Shown here: positions 14,201-50,297 of the stretch, in pieces | Position numbering within the stretch: the stretch's first letter is position 1 | Layout of the letters: every line of letters begins with the position of its first letter | DNA from: Gavia stellata | Taxonomy: Eukaryota; Chordata; Aves; Gaviiformes; Gaviidae | Assembly (NCBI RefSeq): GCF_030936135.1 | Contig: NC_082596.1 | Coordinates: 99,184,449-99,248,448, forward strand | DNA length: 64,000 nucleotides | Direction: 5' to 3' | Notes under the pieces: generated by a model | Seen by the model: only the letters and a program-made list of their open reading frames with translations | Databases searched by the model: none | What the model was told of the DNA's origin: nothing | Position numbers and translations under genes: made by a program

Positions 14201-17200
14201 TGTAAAGCAAAAGGACCTTCTTAAAGCCGCATCTGGTGAGTGCCTGCAAAGTCCGCTAGCCAGCACTTATTTCGTGCACATGGAAACAATCTACAGAAAT
14301 GGGTCTATAACAGACCCCTTACTTTTCTTCTCCCCCACTTCGTTAAGTAAATCAGTCTGGCTTCTTTCTTAAAAGATGTAGAAACAGAAGCTACTAAGTG
14401 TAACAAGGGGGTTTTTAAACAGATTTGTGAACATTGATGACAATCAGAAGACCGTCTAAGGACTGCTTCATCAACTGGTCCTAATTCAAGGTTGCTTTGC
14501 ATTAATTAATCCATCCACTCTCCCCTTACAGAAAAGCAGGATAAATCACAGGAGCTACACTTCTGAAACTCTTCTTACAGAAAAGCAAGAGACACACACA
14601 CAGGATATTTTGGTTTACAAACCATGATAAGTGCAGTACCTTACTGTCACGTTTGCTTACAAAGAGGCAATCCTTTTCACATCAATCAGAATTTACAAAA
14701 AGCTGAAGTGTTTTCAGCTAGCAGCAGACAACTTACCTGCACTCGTGTATCTGGTTCAGCAGGGCAGACACGTTCTTCTCCGAAGTTGTCAGGGCGTTCT
14801 GTGCGCTGGTCTCCATCCTTTTGTACCGGGACTAGACACAGGACACACCATTAGGGATGGGCAATGGCCCAAGCCAAAACCTAGAAGTCTAGTTTGCAAA
14901 ACCTTTTCCTGGAACGCAAATCCCTCCGCGGGCTGCCGTTCAGCTTAGCAGAAACCATCTTAAGTCAAATTTAAACTGAAGTGAGATGACACTTAGGCAG
15001 CGTACTGCAAATATGAACTGGTTTCATTTAGCCACACTAGTTACACCAAAAAACCTCTATGTAACCCATGTGACTTCAGGTCAGGGTCATGCTATCCAGC
15101 CAGCAAAGAAGTGAGCTTCACCCATACTCCAACACACTTAACTGCACAAAACCTTTGTTAGCACCACTTCAAATCAGCATTAATGCAAACTATGTGCATT
15201 TTAATCACAGAATCACTACGGTTGGAAAAGACCTGTAGGATCATCAAGTCCAACCTGAAAAAAAAAAAAAAAGAAAAAAGCCAACCACCACACAACAACA
15301 ACAAGCCACAACACACCAAAAACCAACCCACCCAACACCACCCAGCACCATGTCCATCAAGCCACATCCCACAATGCCACATCCACACGCTCCTTGAATA
15401 CCTCCAGGGAGGGTGACTCTACCACCTCCCTGGGCAGCCTGTTCCAATGTTTCACTACTCTCTCAGTAAAGAACTTTTTCCTAATATCCAGCCTGAACCT
15501 CCCCTGGCGCAACTTGAGGCCATTTCCTCTTGTCCTGTCACTAGTCACTTGGGAGAAGAGGCCAACACCCACCTCTCTACAACCCCCTTTCAGGTAGTTG
15601 TAGAGAGCGATAAGGTCTCCCCTCAGCCTCCTCTTCTCCAGGCTAAACAACCCCAGTTCCCTCAGCCGCTCCTCATCAGACTTGTGCTCCAGACCCCTCA
15701 CCAGCTTCGTCGCCCTTCTCTGGACACGCTCCAGCACCTCAATGTCCTTCTTGTAGTGAGGGGCCCAAAACTGAACACAGGATTCGAGGTGCGGCCTCAC
15801 CAGCGCCGAGTACAGAGGCATGATCACCTCCCTGCTCCTGCTGGGCACACCATTTCTGATCCAGGCCAGGATGGCGTTGGCCTTCTTGGCCACCTGGGCA
15901 CACTGCTGGCTCATATTCAGCCAGGTGTCGATCAACACCCCCAGGTCCTTTTCTGCGGGGGAGCTTTCCAGCCACTGATTTGTAAATGCAACCACCTCCA
16001 GCCTCGATTCAAGGACTTAGTGCCAAAAGTTTAGTGTGAACACCCAGCACCAGCTCAAAAAAAAAAATCATGTTTGCACAATACAAAGTGCTGATCCAGT
16101 ATAAGTCAGCTCTGCCATGTCTGGTTTGTTCAAAGGTTTTAAACACAAAAAGATTTCGTGATGGGTCAGATACTGTCCTCTCATATTAAACTTGCTTTAA
16201 TGCCCACATTACTTGCTATAGCTAAATCAACAGTAGCAGCTGGTTGCTTGCACTGCATCTCAAGTATGTCCATCCAGTTGAGCGAACCAAGAATACACAG
16301 CTTATATACTATCAATTGTGCAAGCAACACCTCCACATACCATTAATCTCTAAGATACAAATGTGTCCTTATGGATCTACACATGTTCTAGTCAATAGGT
16401 GCAGCCTGTATTGCTTTCTGTTTTACATTATGAAAAAGCTGCATAGTCTTACATCGCAGTGAAACTGCTCTGTGCTCCAAAAGGGAGTTTCTGTATTTTT
16501 GATACGTGCCCACGAGGTCAACAACCCACAGCTCCAATGTAGGTACACTGTCACTACACTGGGTTACCTTTCAAAAAGCTTTGATTCCTTCCCTCCGAGG
16601 AAAGTATTTGAAATGCCTAACCAGATTTGATGTTCCAACATGTAAGAAAAAAAGGAAAAACCTAATTAAAACTTCCTTTACACCTTTCCTGTAGCACTTC
16701 TCAGAGTATACAGGTTGTGCAGAATACTTCTAAGAGCACCGGGCTAACAGACACTGCAGCCAAAACGCTGCTCTTGGGCACAAAATATAGATGGGATATT
16801 TGCACCAACTCCCCTGGTGTTAAAAAGGTAGTTTCATGTACTATGAGAAAATGTCACACACGACACACACGTTAAGAGAGTGTACATTACCCAGAACAAT
16901 TTCTTTAGTTGGCCGATAAAGCTTTCGAATGCAGTAATCACCCCTGAATCGCTGAAGTCTTCACGCAGCATCTTGGAAAAAAATGCATCATCCACACTAT
17001 CATCCATTTCCTGACCTAGGAGAAAGTGTATGCCCAGTTAGTACCGTGCTGGAGGGCTTATTGGAATATAAGCCCTCCTGCTACTGAAGGATTTGTCGTT
17101 AGTGTGAATACTAGTTAAAGAGCTGGAATTTGAGTCTTGCTCTTCTAGACCTCACAAGCAGGAGGGAAACTGCCCCAAAAACGCATTGAGAAAGACTCAT

Positions 17201-35200: not shown

Positions 35201-38200
35201 ACTTATGTATGCTTTGGAAGTAAAATAACTTAGAAATAAGAGCTATTTTAACAATATGCCATTTTATATTTGCCAGATTAAAGAAAAAAAAGCCATCCAC
35301 AAATAACTAATAACTTTGTGTATTTATAAAATCAGATTTTTAGGAACTTCTTACAAGGACACCCTGACTGAACTCAACCAAAACTAGCCCCTATACAGAC
35401 TTGTCAAGTATGTTGTTTTCAAAATAAGGACCCTCACCGTCTCAAATTCTCTATCCTTGATCTCTTTGAAAGCTTCAGCAAGATAGTTATCTTCAAACCA
35501 GTGGTGAACAAGGTCATCCCTCCATTTTTTTGTCATTAACCTACAAAGTGCTTCTGAAAGGGCAACCTGAAGGTCATAATCTACATGGCAAACATAAGCA
35601 CAGGGTAAATATCCCCCCCAGCATAACAGAGGGTTATAGCATTGCTACTCTTGCACTAATACAGTCCTACGCATCAGCTAGCTTCAGTTTCACCTAGAAA
35701 AACAGCAGAGGGTAACAGCCAAGTGTTAGCTCCAGGCATCCTCAGCTCCCCGAGCCCAGCGAGGTCGAGGCGCAGAGCACTGCTAACCACGACACACACG
35801 CGTGTGTCAGGAGACGTTCTTGGGGGTCAGGGAGGGGATGAGAGCAAAGCCCCATAGCTAACTCACTATGGTTAAGTTACATTTCACACACCACAGTAAC
35901 ACCCTAGAAAGTGTTATTGCTAGGAGAAAACAAACAAGATTTCATTCAAGAGGCTATAAACCTTATTAACTGAGGTTTGTCCACATGGTGGCAAAGTAGT
36001 TAAAATTTGTTTTTTTGAAGACTAACAGGAAGCATACTTTGTAAACACATACATAAAGCTGATGTAATTAATTTCTACATACATCCGTTTAGCTTTTCAT
36101 ATTAGTTAATACGAATTACTAATACTAGCCAGAAAGAACTACTGCATTGTTGCATCTAACAATTTTTGATTAATATTTTCTTAAAGTACCATCTGATTCC
36201 CCCCCCTCCAAAAAAAAATCATCTACAAGGAAATAATTTAAATTACAATTCATCTATAATAAATAAGCAGATGAAGTAAAGCCGGAGAGCCCCAGCTTCA
36301 TAAGAATAACCACTAAATACTTCTTACCACCAACCTCCAGTATAGTTTTTGCAAGGTCTTTCCTGAAACAACATAATGCAATGAGTTAAAGTGAAAATAA
36401 CTTCAACTCTTGTTGCAGGGAAGACAGTGCTTAGCTAGAGGAGCTGGAGGGAAAACCACTTACGTGAGCGAGCACATCTCTTCAGACAGAGGGAACTTCT
36501 TTCTCTCCTCCCGTGGGACACTATCGAGTATAGAGTTGAGGGTCCTCAAAGCCTTTCCCCCCACAGAGGAAGGGGCAGAAGAGAAAGGGAAAGAATTCAG
36601 TAACATATTTTTCACATTTTTTATCTAATTACGCACACTTGTGTGCACACGTATCCGTATTTTCTTCTAGTAGGAGTCTTACCTCCTGCCGCAGAGTGCA
36701 GCAAATATTTGCTTCTGTCACTAGATGCCCTAGTTCAGGTAAAAATAAATTCACTAGCTCTTTCTTCCCTAGAAAAATAATTAGAAAGGTTACAGCTAGC
36801 AGTGAGCTGGTACCCGTATAAAAGATAGTTGAAGCAACTACATTTTGTGGAGTTGAAGGAGTAAAAATATCCCAGTTGGGGATTCAGTTTTAGATAACGT
36901 TTACAACTCTCTAATCCTGGACAGAAAAGAGAACTGGTAACTTCTCTGTAAAAAAGCTCCAGCTAACCAGGTCAGCAGTTGAAGTAACACTTAAATAGGT
37001 ACAGAAAGGAGAAGCTACTTACTAACCACAACAGATAAATCCATAATATATGGCTTTTGACAAAGTCAACAGAGCAAACCGAGTATTAACCAGAACACGC
37101 TCGTGCCCGCTCTGCTCCCACTAGAACAAGCTAGAAGGACAAATAAGCTCAAGTTACTCAGCCCACAATGTAATGCTTCATTTTTACATGACTTGTGAGC
37201 CTGGATCTCTAGGCACACAGATGCTTGCTCTTTCTGAAAGCACCTGCTCCCCGGCCCTAATGGAAAGCCAGCTGCAGCCACAGACAAAATCTCGCTGCTG
37301 AAACGAATGACAGACAGACATCCCTCCGCCTAGTCAGGGTGGCTGAAGGAGTTACCACATTATTCTGCAGAGGTAGTTGCCTTCAGCAAGGGAATAACAT
37401 CTGGAGCCACTACAAATAGATGTGCAAGAGCAGACTGTCTAGCCTCAAGTCCTTTCAGAAGCACCACTTACTGTGACCAGGCGAAAAACTTGATGCCGAC
37501 CATTTAAACAAGATACCACAGCTAGATTTATTTTTTCAGCATATTCAAAAGAAGCAAACAAAGAGAAGTGATAAAAGGATTCGTGCGCCAATGTAAGCGT
37601 TAGTGAACATTAACTGGAGGGAAATTAGGAGGAGGATTTAAAGAAAACATTGCAAAGAGGAGGAGGTAGGGAGTGCAGGGGAGAAGAGAAAGGGGATAGA
37701 GTCCAAGCAGAATTAAGAACCATGCTCCCGAGACTGAAATTCAGGATATAAAGGAATAGAAGGAAAAACAGTACTGACCTTCATTACTACACCTGCAAAT
37801 CACCTGATGGAAAAAGTAAAGGAAGCCTTTGTTAACACACCACAACGCAAGAACAGCGGTACTCAAAGCGCCAAGGTGTTTATGCCCCCACTGTCACACC
37901 TTTCTGGGGCTAAAATAACATAAAACATTACTGTACCCACGTCAGGAAAAGCTGTGCCACCTGATACAGGTATGTCACATACGGTCACCCCGATCATACA
38001 GGTTGGCATTATGCAGGGAGGGTAAAGGGAGCGAGGCGCCCACTTCCCCTGGGGATTTCAGCAGCACTCAGAGTGCAATACCCTCAGGTTCCCTGGAAAA
38101 CCCACATCGTGGCATCACTTCGTTACTTTTATTGCACATATGGGCCTACGTAAAAACACATTTTACATTTACACACTACAGTACTAGATATCATAACATA

Positions 38201-41200
38201 TGTTATCTGAAGAGTGTTAAAGTCCATTGAGGAAAATTAAAAAATTAAAAATAAAACACAAGAAAAATAAAACAACGCTTCATCCTCCACAGTGAAAGAA
38301 TATGGAGGGAATGGACCAGGAAGACAAAGAAATCAGATTTTGACAAATAAATAATTTATAGAGTATTTCATATAATTTCAACGTGGTTAGTAGAGAAAGA
38401 AGAAAATTTTATTTTCCTCAAATATCTTTTATCAAGTCTCCTAAAGAGTCATAAATTTCAAATAAATTCTGATGCATAAAGTGACACAGTTCCAGTAAGC
38501 TACAGACAAGATTGGGGGAACAGCTTGGGGAAAGAAGCTAAAAGCATGCTTCCTACTGAAAAGGTACATCACTAGGCCTCCAATACCTTTAAAGTTAGGA
38601 ATATTTAAAATAGAAACCTAAATGAGACTTGTAAGCAGCTCAAATTATTCTTTAAAAGTAAATCAGCTATTTCAGACACCGTAGGAACAAATTGCCAGGA
38701 CCACCTTGGCAAAACCATTTGCACATAAGGTGGCAGTACCCTCTGTTTCTCAACAAGGGCTTCAGCACAAAAGCTTTTGTTTGCAAAATGCATCAGAACT
38801 TCTTGCACATTTTCCTGCAAAAACAAACACTTGGCTTCCTGTTAGAAAGGCTGCAGCCCCATGCAGCTTCTCCCAGGTGCATCAAACCTCAGCCTAACGC
38901 CAGCCCGGAGCAGGCTCCTGGGCACTGCCCGTCCCCACCACCTGAGCTGTGTCCCAGGCTCAGTCCTAGAGCACAAGGTCTGCGTAACTATTTATTTTTT
39001 AACAGGAAGCTGTTTGTGAACGATGGTTTTCCTATGCAATAAAGGCAACCCTTCTGTCCCTTAATGCACATACATACCAATGCAGAGTCAAAGAAGTCTT
39101 CAAGAAGTGCCATCAAAAATTTATTCTCGTTTGGGTCGATGAGGATCACAAATGCTCTTGCTCTTTCAAACCAAGATACCAGGTAAAAGTTAAAAGAAAC
39201 AGTTAAAACCTGGGAATAATAGTTAATAATCCTTGAACTAGATGTATCTGCAGCAAGCCTTATGCACATAGAAAGTTTTTCAGCCCCTGAATGTAACTAT
39301 CATGTACTGTGTCAAAAGCTACACGGCATTAAGGAGCGTGAATTTTACTAGGAGAACATGGAAAGCACCACCCCACACCCACTCAGCAGGACTTATCCCC
39401 CCCCCCCCTTCCCTCCCCAGCCCTCCTTTTGTCCTCCTTTCTCATCTCAAGGCACCCAGCCATGGCACCCAGGACCTCCTTGACACAACATACGGTGCTA
39501 GTGGCATTGTAACTCCTGTGGAAATTTCCAGATTATGTCAATTCACAGTGAAATAACCTTGTAAAAATGTGTCAAGCTTTTGAAAAGTCATTATTTTAAG
39601 AATTTATGTTATTAAACATATTGCATATCATCACACATCTATGGCCAACTACAAATCTATGCTTCACCAGAGGTACAGAGCTCAGATGGGTGAGACTTTA
39701 TTAATAATCTCTCCAAGCAGGAATTTTGAGCAATTGTATCCCTGAAAAGCATAATTACAAGGCAGGATTACAACATTTTGCACTGAGGACTCCTTGGAAC
39801 AACTCTGCTAACAGAGAGCAAGTGTTAAGTCTCTCCTAGCTACATTAGATCCAGATATTACTCCTCTTAGGCACAAGTGCATTTCTGCTACTACACGTGT
39901 TACCAGCTGAAATCAGTATTGTGCCATTAGAAGATAAATACAATTGCAGATTAGATACACAGTAAACCAGCTGCATTTAAAAAAGGACCTTCATAAAGAG
40001 TATGTCAGCTTTTAAAATTGTAAAAGCACAAACTGCTCATCAAGTCTCTTACGAAAATTGTATTTTGCTGGAGCACTTAAAATATATTTAGAAATTCTAT
40101 ATCATTTCACAAATGGGACTCATGAAAACTCATCTTCTCCTTCCATTGTCAACATAAAGAAAAAACCCACAAACCCATTAAGTCAGGTGGTAAGTGAAGC
40201 CGTGATGTTAGCTGCTGTACCGAAAGCAATGCAATGAAAGTAAGCACCTTTTCTCACTCAGCTCATACAATATATTTAAAAAAATATTTTATTTCTGTGT
40301 GGCCAACAAGCCATCCTCTAGTTCTCACTTCCTTGGAGTTCCTTTCCCGATACAAGCAACCTTAAATCACATTAGTAACTTGTATACAGTATTATACTCA
40401 TCTTTTCTACCAGTCCTTGCTCAATGAACAAACTTGTCCCTTCTTGAAGATCACTTTTAAGGTAGAGCTGAATACATTTCAGCAGCAGCGAAACATTCTG
40501 GAATTCATTCTTATCCAGCTCCTACAGAAACACAGAGTGCCATGCTTTGTTAGTCTGATACCCATAGAGCTGGGCGTTAAGATAGTTAAGATTATTTATG
40601 GTACTCACCTTTCTCAGTGCTTTGTCTAGCTGGTTGAAGAGAGATTCGCTGTATTTCTGGGGAGGCTCTATTTCTCTCTCCTGAAGCAGTTCGCTTATTT
40701 TCTGAAATCCTTTCCCTTTAAAAGCATCAGTGAGAAGCATTTCGAGCTGCGGAAGGAGAAGCAGCAAACAACTAGCGAGTAAAATAAGCGGGCATTTGAA
40801 TTGTTGCAGCACTGATTACAAGAAAATACTTGTAATACTATTTTTAAAGTTGTAGGCTTTTTGTTTATTTGTTTTTACTTCATTTGTTTCTCTACTTTCA
40901 TTTTACTGTTACATCTGGAGGTGAAACATCAGTCTTAGCCTCGAAGGGAGACAGTAGCTTCAAAACTGAGTAATCTTAAAGGATACTGAATAAGGAAATA
41001 AGCAACTCCTTTAGTACACTCAGTTTGTAATTCGTACCATGCCCTGCAACTATTTCTCCCGCTTATTAATGAAAAGATTAAGGGATCTGCTGTGCTTCCC
41101 ACATTACATTAAATTACTAAAAATTCGACATCATGCCATATCCATTTAAGAATGGACCTTTACATGTATATACAACTATTTGTAAGATAAAGCTAAGGAT

Positions 41201-41583
41201 ACATTTCAAAGATACTTACATAATCTTCTGCTCTGGCTGCCATGCTGCCATTCCCCTCTCTGTTCCGTTCTTCACTTTTCTCTTCCTTTAAAAAGAAAAG
41301 GGAGAGAAAAATACAGAAAAAACTGCTTTTGCCACCCAAAAGCTGAGGACCGTTTACTCACCCTCTCTCTCCCAAGAGGCTGCTTTTCCTTCCATATTTC
41401 CTAAGGCAAGTTTCAAAATCACCCCACGCTTCCAAACCGGAGGTTTACCAAAGCCGCGACCACACGAAGCCCATAGCGGTGCCCCGCGGGGGTCCCCCGG
41501 GGGGGGATCCACCGCGTGTCCCTGCCACCCCCCGGCCCCGGTGCCGCTTCCCCGCCGCAGCGAGCGGCCCTTACCTGGGCCAT
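11163..41583 (-). CDS. SYCP2L: SYCP2L, synaptonemal complex protein 2-like, about 35 coding exons
   Basis: Paralogue of the lateral-element protein SYCP2, acting on meiotic chromosome axes; in mammals it is oocyte-enriched and centromere-associated. Coding exons in transcript order: 41583-41575, 41285-41220, 40746-40609, 40521-40402, 39182-39078, 38814-38769, 36768-36683, 36552-36464, 36362-36328, 35580-35438, 34990-34938, 34583-34538, 33722-33630, 33541-33481, 33070-32922, 32062-32002, 29633-29515, 28901-28789, 28146-28101, 26987-26923, 25363-25315, 24152-24097, 23476-23422, 22833-22688, 21597-21548, 20415-20319, 19920-19829, 19675-19612, 17889-17758, 17015-16891, 14831-14737, 13264-13165, 13084-13026, 12543-12474, 11222-11163. 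Phases chain correctly except from 23422 to 22833. The product is about 960 residues, longer than the 812 or so I recall for human. The start sits in GCGCCATGG in the CpG island and gives [11 protein letters not shown]. Diagnostic sequence: [20 protein letters not shown], nearly identical to SYCP2. Weak points: exon 6 donor, a suspected microexon, and the last exon. Confidence 0.9.
12474..17015 (-). other. SYCP2L: SYCP2L exons 30-34: C-terminal coiled-coil region
   Basis: Five exons encode a helical C-terminus like that of SYCP2, the part that pairs with SYCP3 in the lateral element. Exon 30: [19 protein letters not shown] and [10 protein letters not shown]. Exon 31: [20 protein letters not shown]. 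Exon 32: [19 protein letters not shown], close to SYCP2's FQ-x-III-EELENFEK. Exon 33: [19 protein letters not shown], matching the SYCP2 VDFW segment. Exon 34: [20 protein letters not shown]. Heptad-like spacing of hydrophobics is visible. The antisense CR1 at 15204-16012 sits in the intron between exons 30 and 31. Confidence 0.85.
15204..16012 (-). mobile_element. CR1-type LINE, 5'-truncated, antisense to the window
   Basis: A minus-strand frame from 15995 to 15357 stays open for 212 codons. It encodes the C-terminal part of a CR1 ORF2 product: [59 protein letters not shown] and [18 protein letters not shown]. The element ends with the CR1 tail GTTGGACTTGATGATC and TTCCAACC...GTGATTCTGTGATT. 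The reverse-transcriptase catalytic region is absent by 5' truncation. A T-rich and TTG-rich expansion of roughly 100 bp interrupts the part just before the tail. It lies in a SYCP2L intron in the same orientation as the gene. The intact frame suggests a fairly young copy. Confidence 0.93.
17068..17577. repeat. dispersed ~32-bp duplication in a SYCP2L intron
   Basis: A segment containing CCCTCCTGCTACTGAAGG occurs at 17068-17100 and again at 17544-17577, flanked in both by ATAAGC/ATAAAC and by a diverged TTTGTCGTT/CTTCGTCATT. The copies flank no exon and carry no transposon hallmark. Confidence 0.8.
17758..29633 (-). other. SYCP2L: SYCP2L exons 17-29: low-complexity linker
   Basis: Thirteen mostly small exons encode a hydrophilic, Ser/Lys/Glu-rich linker as in SYCP2 and mammalian SYCP2L. 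Within it, exon 24 (22833-22688) carries [15 protein letters not shown] and then [20 protein letters not shown]. This resembles the conserved NLFSDTE ... DYSR block of SYCP2 and fixes the frame of that exon. Exon 27 is acidic ([20 protein letters not shown]). Exon 29 holds [16 protein letters not shown]. The frame fixed by exon 24 does not follow from exon 23 by any GT donor seen, so a small exon between 22834 and 23421 is probably missing from this model. Confidence 0.78.
20922..20951. repeat. 15-bp tandem duplication
   Basis: ATGGTTAGTTTTCCC is present twice in tandem, identical, in a SYCP2L intron. Confidence 0.9.
32002..33722 (-). other. SYCP2L: SYCP2L exons 13-16: Spt16M-like region
   Basis: Four exons encode the segment that follows the armadillo-like domain in SYCP2, where a Spt16M-like fold has been described. 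Exon 13 (33722-33630) opens [20 protein letters not shown] and ends FYVDSNE. Exon 14 gives [18 protein letters not shown]. Exon 15 gives [19 protein letters not shown] and then [13 protein letters not shown], an alternating hydrophobic pattern typical of beta strands. Exon 16 is a hydrophilic tail. All four have consensus splice sites and matching phases. This is the most securely identified part of the gene. Confidence 0.88.
34538..41583 (-). other. SYCP2L: SYCP2L exons 1-12: N-terminal armadillo-like region
   Basis: These exons encode roughly residues 1-270. The first 25 residues are charged and non-conserved. Then comes the helical region that corresponds to the armadillo-like domain described for SYCP2. 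Recognisable stretches are [20 protein letters not shown] (exon 3), [20 protein letters not shown] (exon 4), [10 protein letters not shown] (exon 5), [19 protein letters not shown] (exon 7), [20 protein letters not shown] (exon 10), [14 protein letters not shown] (exon 11) and [14 protein letters not shown] (exon 12). Order and spacing follow SYCP2, which supports the exon joins. The intron between exons 4 and 5 is AT-AC. Exon 6 ends at an unusually weak donor. Confidence 0.85.
39183..40401 (-). other. SYCP2L: AT-AC intron of SYCP2L (between exons 4 and 5)
   Basis: On the minus strand exon 4 ends GTAGAAAAG and the intron begins ATGAGTATAA. It ends TTTCTTTTAACTTTTAC directly before CTGGTATCTTGG. 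Joining at AT...AC gives GLVEK then LVSWFERA in frame, the same junction spacing as SYCP2 (QKMVAWFEK). No AG lies within the last 34 bases before exon 5. The shifted GT donor (GTATAA, four bases on) meets a stop with every AG acceptor I tried. The donor resembles GTGAGT with G1 changed to A, which fits a U2-type AT-AC intron; the U12 AT-AC donor would be ATATCCTT. Confidence 0.7.
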
Positions 41584-45800: not shown

Positions 45801-47682
45801 ATTTTAAGTTTCCTACTTTGTATTAGGGACTATTTGCAGGTTCGTTTAGGGAAATGCAATGGGTAAGGACAAGTCAAATATATTGTTTTATCGTATGTCA
45901 ATATAGCTTTGGATACATCAGTCTGTGCATCCGCAGATGTTTGAAAGCATCTTTGGATGGCTTTCCAGGGTATACTTTTCAGTCCTACTCAAGAAGGTGT
46001 TGGTTGTTTTTAGAGTAGAAAGTATTTGTCACCTGGTGGTGTGAAACCTCTCTAAAGCCTATTTACACTGTTCTAGCGGTGGCTGTTATAAAGCAGAACT
46101 GAGATGCTGGACTGCAGAAAACCCACCAAACTAAATTTCTGATCCTTTTTTTCCCCTTGGTTCCGATCAGCTACTCCTGAATGTTAGACATAGGTAACAC
46201 CTTTACTCCTTCATCATCCAGCCTTGCAGCTCTGCAGTCCTTGCTGGCTTCTCCCTCACTTTTTACTTCTGTCTACCTGCAAATCATGATTTATTTTAAC
46301 TTTTTAAAATTTAATCCCTCCTTTTCATTTAGTTTCTCCTCCCTGTTCTCTTGTGCCAAATCACAGACCATACCATGGCTACCTCTCATTCTACTTACTG
46401 CATTTTCTCTTCTTTTACCCCCTTCCAGTTCACATCTAATTCTTTGTTAATCCTACTTTAGGCTAAAGGAGTGCATGACCACCCCAGGCCAGAGAGTAAA
46501 TTGGAGGCAGAGGCAAGACGAAGTGCCATTAAGAAGCAAATGTCCTCTTCTCACCATTCCCAGAAAAAGAGATCTCTAAACTCAGAGGTAAGTCAAAGTC
46601 ATTAGTCAACTAAAAAGGTGTCGTAAGTGAAGACTTGTAGTCAATTAAAAAGGTGTCATAAGCATGTACTGGGGATCCCAGGTCAAGACAAAGTTTTACA
46701 TCATGTTCATTTGGGGCTGAAATGAGCAATAGCACATGTGTCGAGACGTATATGTGTGTGGACAGTACCCGTTCCCAAATCTCAAATACCTACTTGTCCT
46801 TTGCAGGCAGGAAGGTACCACGACAGCAGCAGCTATGTCAATAACGTACAGAGTCTGCCCTGCATGGATGGCCCAGAAAGAGTTGGTGTCATCGCAGACA
46901 CCAATTTTTCAATTCCAGCTCAGTCTTCACTGCAAAATTCTGACCTCTACAAAGCAACTTACGACGCAGCCAGCTTCCAAGAGGACCAGCTATTGCCATA
47001 CCCAAAGTGCCCCAACCCAAGGATCTATGTGCCCAGGCCATGCAGCTACGAGTTTGGAGTTCCTACCTTTATAAGCTCCAGCCCTTACCCAACGTTTTAC
47101 AAAGACCTGACAAGTCCTGCCATCGACACCGACCCACTCAGTTTGAATGGATCTCACTACAACACTGTGACTGCCCATGATAAGAGCTTTGATAACGCTG
47201 GCAGACATTATGGACTGAAACCAGCGTGGGGAAAAACTGGCAGCGGAGACCGAAGTGACTATGGACAGGTGCAAGCAAGCACTAACCACCCTTACTATGG
47301 TGGGGACTACCCCTGCAGGTACGGTCCCAGCCCCTCTCCCATAGCCCCACCGTTGCAAACGGTCATCACAACCACGACCAAGGTGTCCTACCAGGCCTAC
47401 AAGCCATCCGCGTTGAAATACAGCAACAACCTCTGCGATATGAAAAATCTTCAGAGCTATACCCATGTGGCAGAAAATGTCTCGGGCGCTATCTATTCAG
47501 GGATGAAGATTCAGGAAGACTTTGGGATGATAAAGTCAGCGTTACTCTACCAGCACGACCCAGTCCCCACAAAGTCCGAACCAGCCGAGAGCATGGAGAC
47601 CTATCGGTATGGGCCACCGCTGGGGAGCAGCTATGCTGAGCACGAAGGACAGACCTTAAGGTTTGAGAGTGCTGAATATTGA
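42830..47682 (+). CDS. GCM2: GCM2, glial cells missing homolog 2, complete, 5 coding exons
   Basis: Zinc-containing GCM-family transcription factor, nuclear, required for parathyroid development in tetrapods; the family binds ATGCGGGT-like sites. Exons: 42830-42871, 44183-44435, 44798-44910, 46462-46587, 46807-47682, all GT-AG with matching phases; the TGA follows the last exon. The product is 469 residues (human about 506). The start is fixed by an in-frame TAA at 42791 with no ATG between. The GCM domain spans about residues 4-160: [86 protein letters not shown]. The C-terminal activation half has GCM2-specific blocks ([27 protein letters not shown]). GCM1 is excluded by these blocks and by the SYCP2L and MAK neighbours. 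Confidence 0.96.
44183..44435 (+). other. GCM2: GCM2 coding exon 2
   Basis: Follows GCCCCGTTGCAG and ends at CAAA|GTGAGA in phase 1. It encodes most of the DNA-contacting beta-sheet region of the GCM domain (FREW-like [48 protein letters not shown]). The exon is GC-rich compared with its flanks. Confidence 0.95.
44798..44910 (+). other. GCM2: GCM2 coding exon 3
   Basis: Follows TCTGTTTGCAG and ends at TTCCAG|GTAAAA in phase 0. It encodes [20 protein letters not shown] and [17 protein letters not shown], with the Cys and His residues of the zinc-bound part of the domain. Confidence 0.95.
45004..45028. repeat. TA-rich microsatellite in GCM2 intron 3
   Basis: A short run of TA dinucleotides broken by a few T bases, in an AT-rich intron. 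Confidence 0.8.
46462..46587 (+). other. GCM2: GCM2 coding exon 4
   Basis: Follows TCCTACTTTAG and ends at TCAGAG|GTAAGT in phase 0. It encodes [20 protein letters not shown] and a basic stretch (SAIKKQ, SQKKRS) that closes the GCM domain and looks like a nuclear localisation signal. Confidence 0.94.
46603..46662. repeat. imperfect 25-bp direct duplication in GCM2 intron 4
   Basis: TAGTCAACTAAAAAGGTGTC... at 46603-46627 recurs with two changes at 46638-46662, 35 bases on, right after the exon 4 donor. Confidence 0.85.
46807..47682 (+). other. GCM2: GCM2 coding exon 5 (C-terminal activation region)
   Basis: Follows GTCCTTTGCAG and runs 291 codons plus the TGA that ends at 47682. The region is Tyr-, Pro- and Ser-rich and matches mammalian GCM2 in blocks ([41 protein letters not shown]). 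The last 60 or so residues do not resemble the human end and the protein is shorter there. Confidence 0.94.
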
Positions 47683-49177: not shown

Positions 49178-50297
49178 TTACTACCCGGACTTGTGCAAAG
49201 CATTTGACGCTGTCCTACACCACATCCTTGTCTCTAAATTGGGGATATGTGGATTTGACGGATGAACTACTCAGTGGATAAGGAAGTGGCTGGATGGTCG
49301 CACTCGAAGAGCTGTGGTCAGCGGCTTGATGTCCAAGTGGAGACCACTGACAAGTGGCGTTCCTCCGGGGTCAGTATTGGGACCAGCGCTGTTTAACATC
49401 TTTGTGGGCGACATGGACAGTGGGATTGAGTGCACCCTCAGCAAGTTTGCCAATGACACCAAGCTGTGCGGTGCGGTCAACACGCTAGAGGGAAGGGATG
49501 CCATCCAGAGGGACCTTGACAGGCTTGAGAGGTGGGCCCATGCAAAGTTCAACAAGGCCAAGTGCAAGGTCGTGCACACGGGTCAGGGCAAGCCCAAGCA
49601 CAAATACAGACTGGGCAGAAAACGTATTGAGAGCAGCCCTGAGGAGAAGGACTTGGGGGTGTTGGTTGATGAGAAGCTCAATGTGAGCCAGCAGTGTGCA
49701 CTTGCAGTCCAGAAAGCCAACCGTATCCTGGGCTGCATCAAAAGAAGTGTGACCAGCAGGTCGAGGGAGGTGATTCTCCCACTCTACATCACTCTGGTGA
49801 GACCCTACATGGAGTACTGCATCCAGCACCTGGGCCCCCAACATAAGAAGGACATGGACCTATTGGAGCGAGTCCAGAGAAGCACCTCTCCTATGAAAAC
49901 AGGCTGAGAGAGTTGAGGTTGTTCAGCATGGAGAAGAAAAGGCTCCAGGGAGACCTTCTAGCAGCCTTCCAGTACCTGAAGGGGCCTACAGGAAAGCTGG
50001 AGAGGGACTTTTTGCAAGGGCATGTAGTGAGAGGACAAGGGGTAATGGCTTTAAGCTGAAAAAGGGTAGATTTAGATTAGATATTAGGAAGAAATTCCTC
50101 ACCCTGAGGGTGGTGAGGCGCTGGCACAGGTTGCCCAGAGAAGTTGTGGATGTCCCATCCCTGGAAGTGTTCAAGACCAGGCTGGATGGGGCTTGGAGCA
50201 ACCTGGTCTAGGGGAAGGTGTCCCTGCCCATGGCAGGGGGGTTGGAACTAGATGATCTTTAAGGTCCCTTCCAACCCAAACCATTCTATGCTTCTAT
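49178..50297 (+). mobile_element. CR1-type LINE, 5'-truncated and decayed, sense strand
   Basis: Begins inside the reverse-transcriptase domain (LCKAFDAVLHHILVSKLGI in translation) and runs to the CR1 tail, with AACTAGATGATC, CCTTCCAACCC and ATTCTATGCTTCTATG at 50249-50297. RT blocks seen: [20 protein letters not shown] and [11 protein letters not shown]. The catalytic motif that is normally ADD reads AND here, so the first active-site aspartate is lost. A stop near 49283 and a frame break near 49900 confirm that it is dead. Later blocks ([20 protein letters not shown]) match the copy in SYCP2L, but this copy is clearly more diverged. It lies in the probable GCM2 3' region. Confidence 0.93.

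Follow-up and report, generated by a model that had tools for sequence, protein, structure and literature searches.

The question raised by this locus is how exons 4 and 5 of a SYCP2-family meiosis gene, probably that of a bird and found on the minus strand of the window (i.e., of the whole 64,000-nt stretch of DNA analysed, in which there are 0 Ns), are joined, and which spliceosome would be doing that joining. The answer argued for here is that intron 4 probably is a U2-type AT-AC intron, that is, a member of AT-AC subclass II, a prediction made from the DNA. U2-type AT-AC introns are already known. Intron 4 would be an uncommon example of these, with its interest lying in the gene that it interrupts as well as in the question of its origin.

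That the gene belongs to the SYCP2 family is seen from its encoding of both an armadillo-like and a Spt16M-like domain. The product spliced from exons 2 to 5 (129 aa) scores 166.3 bits against Pfam SYCP2_ARLD, with protein positions 9-129 aligned to profile positions 2-122, i.e., 121 versus 121 positions. A longer gene model reaches 181.9 bits against this same profile (PF18581), covering it in its entirety, and a downstream piece scores 77.4 bits against SYCP2_SLD (PF18584). Of solved structures, just one emerges as a strong relative, namely 5iwz, which is synaptonemal complex protein 2 (4.7e-11, and 3.4e-36 in a second search). The gene had been called SYCP2L in an earlier, sequence-only reading of this DNA; that label is the naming of that reading, with the evidence here pointing to placement within the SYCP2 family only.

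Other features of the window lie beyond this gene. Upstream of it, on the opposite strand, is an open stretch of 318 codons (46726-47679, plus strand) which has no Pfam match and which resembles a final coding exon of GCM2, the gene next to which SYCP2L lies. A further open stretch (49266-49904, plus strand) matches reverse transcriptase (Pfam RVT_1, 35.4 bits) and is a retroelement remnant. Also open, over 219 codons and likewise with no Pfam match, is 15360-16016 (minus strand), which I take to resemble the 3' part of the second frame of a CR1-type element. A search of the window with Rfam gave zero matches.

The letters and coordinates on which the sequence-only reading was based (39183..40401, minus strand) are confirmed by direct reading of the sequence. 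On the minus strand, that is, exon 4 ends with ...GTAGAAAAG at 40402, followed by ATGAGTATAA, and exon 5, from 39182, is directly preceded by TTTCTTTTAACTTTTAC. So delimited, intron 4 has ATGAGTATAATACTG as its first bases and TTTCTTTTAACTTTTAC as its last, with ...GGACTGGTAGAAAAG and CTGGTATCTTGGTTTGAAAGAG as its flanks (Table 1; slashes in motifs indicate exon-intron boundaries). As that reading also stated, AT...AC splicing would keep the frame, and exons 3, 4 and 5 are all of phase 0. The gene model begins with a start codon at 41243 and comprises 243 stop-free codons up to 35438, where exon 9 ends. Its other introns, from exon 2 to exon 10, are GT-AG in seven cases of seven, with intron 6 tentative, a count which is partly built in as the exon ends of these introns were set where homology and GT/AG coincide.

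Table 1. Features of the exon 3 to exon 5 region, in positions of the window.
Feature	Position	Strand	Description
Exon 3, SYCP2-family gene	40609..40746	-	138 nt, phase 0; open frame, GCAG acceptor, donor AAG/GTGAGT
Exon 4	40402..40521	-	120 nt, phase 0, ends ...LVEK; open frame, TGTAG acceptor, SYCP2_ARLD homology
Intron 4, putative AT-AC ends	39183..40401	-	1,219 nt; ends as suggested by homology
5' splice site of intron 4, AAG/ATGAGTATAA	40392..40404	-	matrix of major-class frequencies, comparison with U12 consensus
3' splice site region of intron 4	39183..39211	-	CAG (39209 boundary), followed by two copies of TTTTAAC (A at -21 and -8, respectively) and by TTTTAC/CTG; in-frame alternative AC 6 nt upstream
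Exon 5	39078..39182	-	105 nt, phase 0, begins LVSWFERA; open frame, donor TTG/GTATGT, homology

Two further observations concern splice sites of this gene. A good-looking CAG acceptor is present at 39209-39211 (minus strand), 26 nt before exon 5 would start if defined by AC. It is in frame with the A donor at 40401 as well as with a weak GT donor at 40410. At the exon 6/7 junction (38740-38814 and 36464-36552, both minus strand) the donor, AGG/GTACTG, scores 2.4, and the model there is without eight residues of 5iwz. With VLPPYVQM retained at this junction the Pfam score is 181.9 bits as opposed to 176.6, yet an even poorer-looking donor would be needed. A 24-nt micro-exon, sought for the exon 6-7 gap, gave a top score of -8, no better than that of the in-place VLPPYVQM (-6).

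It is homology which defines the ends of intron 4. With an AT-AC join the reading frame is kept and there is no gap relative to the family (Pfam SYCP2_ARLD), and the alignment with 5iwz across the exon 4/5 join, where that protein has KQGLVQKMVSWFEN / KQGLVQKMVSWFENSK, is ungapped as well. The sequence-only reading had placed the junction where SYCP2 has QKM-VAWFEK. The alignment is indeed gapless at that point, but 5iwz has QKMVSWFE and the join falls before the M-aligned residue (K/L-V) rather than between M and V. If both ends are slid together from -12 to +12 nt, then 25 gapless joins result, with a recognised end pair, AT-AC, seen only at 0; neither GT-AG nor GC-AG occurs among them. A product with M instead of L at the join (EKM) scores 168.4 bits, above the 166.3 bits of AT-AC, as the family favours M. 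The end pairs which EKM joins need, however, are TG-CC, GA-CT or AG-TG, none with support known to me, and these joins were rejected. Among the natural joins tested, AT-AC is thus supported as what appears, from homology and end pairs, to be the best-fitting one. The motif AGAT[AG]AGTAT occurs just once over both strands of the window, this being the intron 4 donor site, and T[AG]AGTAT occurs 10 times in the window's 128,000 strand positions.

The donor, AAG/ATGAGTAT, possesses every major-class base except that at +1, and has G at +5. Scored using major-class frequencies, AAG/ATGAGT attains 9.98 of a possible 10.86 with +1 omitted and 3.6 with +1 included, and versus the U12 donor consensus it matches at three of nine positions, or at two of seven over +2 to +8. 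The frequencies used for donors are general background values rather than ones drawn from a reference set, as are the consensus strings and the ends of U1, U11 and U6atac. Predicted pairing of the intron 4 donor with U1 is -5.9 kcal/mol, the weakest of the eight donors of the gene tested, with -6.7 to -12.1 kcal/mol for the seven GT donors and -1.9 to -5.1 kcal/mol for five rival GT sites (-5.1 at 40397 and -5.0 at 40410). Its predicted pairing with U11 is -2.4 and with a U6atac-like end +1.1, versus -5.3 and -6.5, respectively, for the U12 consensus. By pairing, then, this donor would rank as weak for the major class but not as a minor-class site, and the earlier description of it as U2-like, not U12-like, holds up. 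AT and AC ends, given the homology-defined join, along with a donor that is major-class from +2 and has G at +5, are features that would place intron 4 in subclass II. Matters of direct observation are the sequence itself, the reading frame, the homology without gaps and the class of the donor. Some of the above numbers nevertheless count against an AT-AC join: The EKM product outscores it, the donor score of 3.6, i.e., with the penalty for A, is barely above that of the best GT/GC-AG rival, and U1 pairing, besides being the weakest in the gene, is only slightly better than that of the GT donors at 40397 and 40410.

That intron 4 instead is of the U12-type AT-AC kind, its donor having degenerated, is scarcely credible. 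Such introns have the same terminal dinucleotides, and TTTTAAC is found twice near the acceptor, a motif whose likeness to a U12 branch site had led the sequence-only reading to leave the class open. The motif is present, but over the last 40 nt no U12-like branch match does better than 6 of 9, its A lying at -8 or -9, and this score is equalled by 27% of 21,320 minus-strand stretches and by 39% of 1,797 pyrimidine-rich ones, i.e., it is at chance level. An A at -8 also is too close to the acceptor relative to the optimum of 11-13 nt that is given in PMC6717393, and the class leans U2. Of the conserved features of U12-type AT-AC introns, intron 4 has neither the ATATCC-type donor nor a TTCCTTAAC branch site at some 11-13 nt before its acceptor, and phase 0 and G at -1 are both atypical for U12. 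On donor, branch motif and spacing the U12 class consequently is rejected. A GT-AG join with some other boundary, such as from donor 40410 (CTG/GTAGAA) to the CAG at 39209, with a short insert in place of VEK, is improbable, though candidates for it are numerous: With donors taken from 40515-40301 and acceptors from 39400-39086, 66 GT/GC-AG joins are in frame and free of stops. The shifted GT donor at 40397, which had been claimed to give a stop with nearby AGs, in fact has stop-free in-frame joins to five of them (39286, 39247, 39160, 39154 and 39097), with residues added or removed; that claim is only partly right. Such joins do have poor donors, however, and they harm the domain. The top donor score among the 66 is only 3.3, and each of the five that were scored with Pfam is down by 11.5 to 59.4 bits, i.e., at 154.8 (40410 to 39209, which retains the domain and uses a good CAG), 148.6 (40397 to 39247), 141.0 (40387 to 39162), 137.5 (40397 to 39160) and 106.9 bits (40454 to 39160). 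A GT-AG join would, in addition, make a coincidence of the strong U1-like sequence at 40401.

The A donor may also be used with a different acceptor, that is, with AC 39189 (adding FY) or AG 39209 (adding VLTVSFNFY), alone or as alternatives, and this is distinctly improbable. Both of these acceptors are in frame, but they score 4.3 and 10.6 bits lower, respectively, than AT-AC at 39183, i.e., 162.0 versus 166.3 bits for AC 39189 and, in the longer construct, 171.3 (with a 9-residue insert) versus 181.9 bits for AT-AG to 39209. An A-G end pair, moreover, would be expected to stall splicing at its second step. There is a known U2-like AT-AG site, in human C14orf37, with RNA editing there to GT-AG (PMC4176328). 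Very improbable, lastly, is a donor which simply is broken, G1 having become A as a private allele, a sequencing error or an aspect of gene decay, with exon 4 read through to a stop or skipped. Read-through from exon 4 does run into a stop, and the exon 6 donor is similarly weak (above). A lone donor lesion, however, would leave AG at the gapless acceptor, where there is AC instead, and the gene model is open from start codon to exon 9, with GT-AG at the other introns. The strongest reason for viewing intron 4 as settled rather than broken is thus that an AC at the gapless acceptor is unexplained by a single donor lesion or base error. Both ends have changed, and in the sole combination known to work, which is not to be expected from a single error or mutation.

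As a U2-type AT-AC intron, intron 4 would be processed as follows, where it is the making of the join in RNA, the branch point and the A-C step that I infer. AAG/ATGAGTAT would be recognised by U1 and then by U6. When the major spliceosome carries out the second step, it brings together the two terminal bases of an intron, for which an A-C end pair is workable and A-G is not. The terminal A consequently may be tolerated by way of the last base being C, and A-C end pairing would account as well for bypass of the better-looking CAG that is 26 nt upstream of exon 5. Major-class branch motifs of the form yUnAy have their A at -41, -21, -8 and -2, with the likely branch point, by my choice, being TTAAC with A at -21.

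Intron 4 has likenesses to known systems. Human SCN4A intron 21, a U2-type AT-AC intron of a sodium-channel gene, shares AT-AC ends and a donor of major-class type in which +5 is G, and its splicing needs the major spliceosome, with interaction between first and last bases discussed (PMC2831892). Sodium-channel introns differ in residing in another gene family, as SYCP2-family genes encode a synaptonemal-complex protein, and no common ancestry is claimed. A proposal of Lin et al. is that existing sodium-channel U2-type AT-AC introns were derived from U12-type AT-AC introns and then trapped (PMC2831892). In an Arabidopsis GFP reporter a U2-type AT-AC intron similarly competes with nearby GT-AG sites, accounting for ~17.5% of the transcripts that the wild-type line makes and for >50% of those of two mutants (PMC5473141), but that is a plant transgene. 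U2-type AT-AC introns of Gallus gallus are of the same class, and their representing 0.01% of U2-type introns in both chicken and human (Table 2, PMC7367187) agrees with the rarity in vertebrates that the sequence-only reading asserted, the chicken figure being a bulk count. Many non-canonical annotated chicken introns, according to the same source, are misplaced boundaries. Major-class AT-AC introns have been termed 'AT-AC type II' (PMC7072748) and are probable in C. elegans, a species seemingly without minor snRNAs (PMC3033335). Among the titles and abstract openings listed (for SYCP2L, those of 30 of 78 papers) there are none about intron 4, and 'SYCP2' has zero occurrences in the available portions of PMC4176328 and PMC6717393; absence from print is not claimed. 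Pattern matches in genome contigs (43) and in viral contigs (16) include no relative, as is expected for a vertebrate gene.

For annotation, programs which allow GT-AG only would move an exon boundary or drop exon 4 or 5. A more speculative, indeed unlikely, extension is that this is a U2-type AT-AC intron outside of ion-channel genes which has been kept across a bird lineage in a germ-cell gene, trapped, and which gives rise to alternative proteins, via AC 39183, AC 39189 and AG 39209, differing by 2 or 9 residues of the armadillo-like domain. Trapping would be a consequence of both ends having changed (A with C), because reverting either end alone would break the intron. The interaction of first and last bases in the major spliceosome is something for which U2-type AT-AC introns provide a natural test. 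If birds share one that lies in an unrelated gene, it would be datable on the bird tree, and it could then be asked whether its forerunner was a U12-type or instead an ordinary GT-AG intron.
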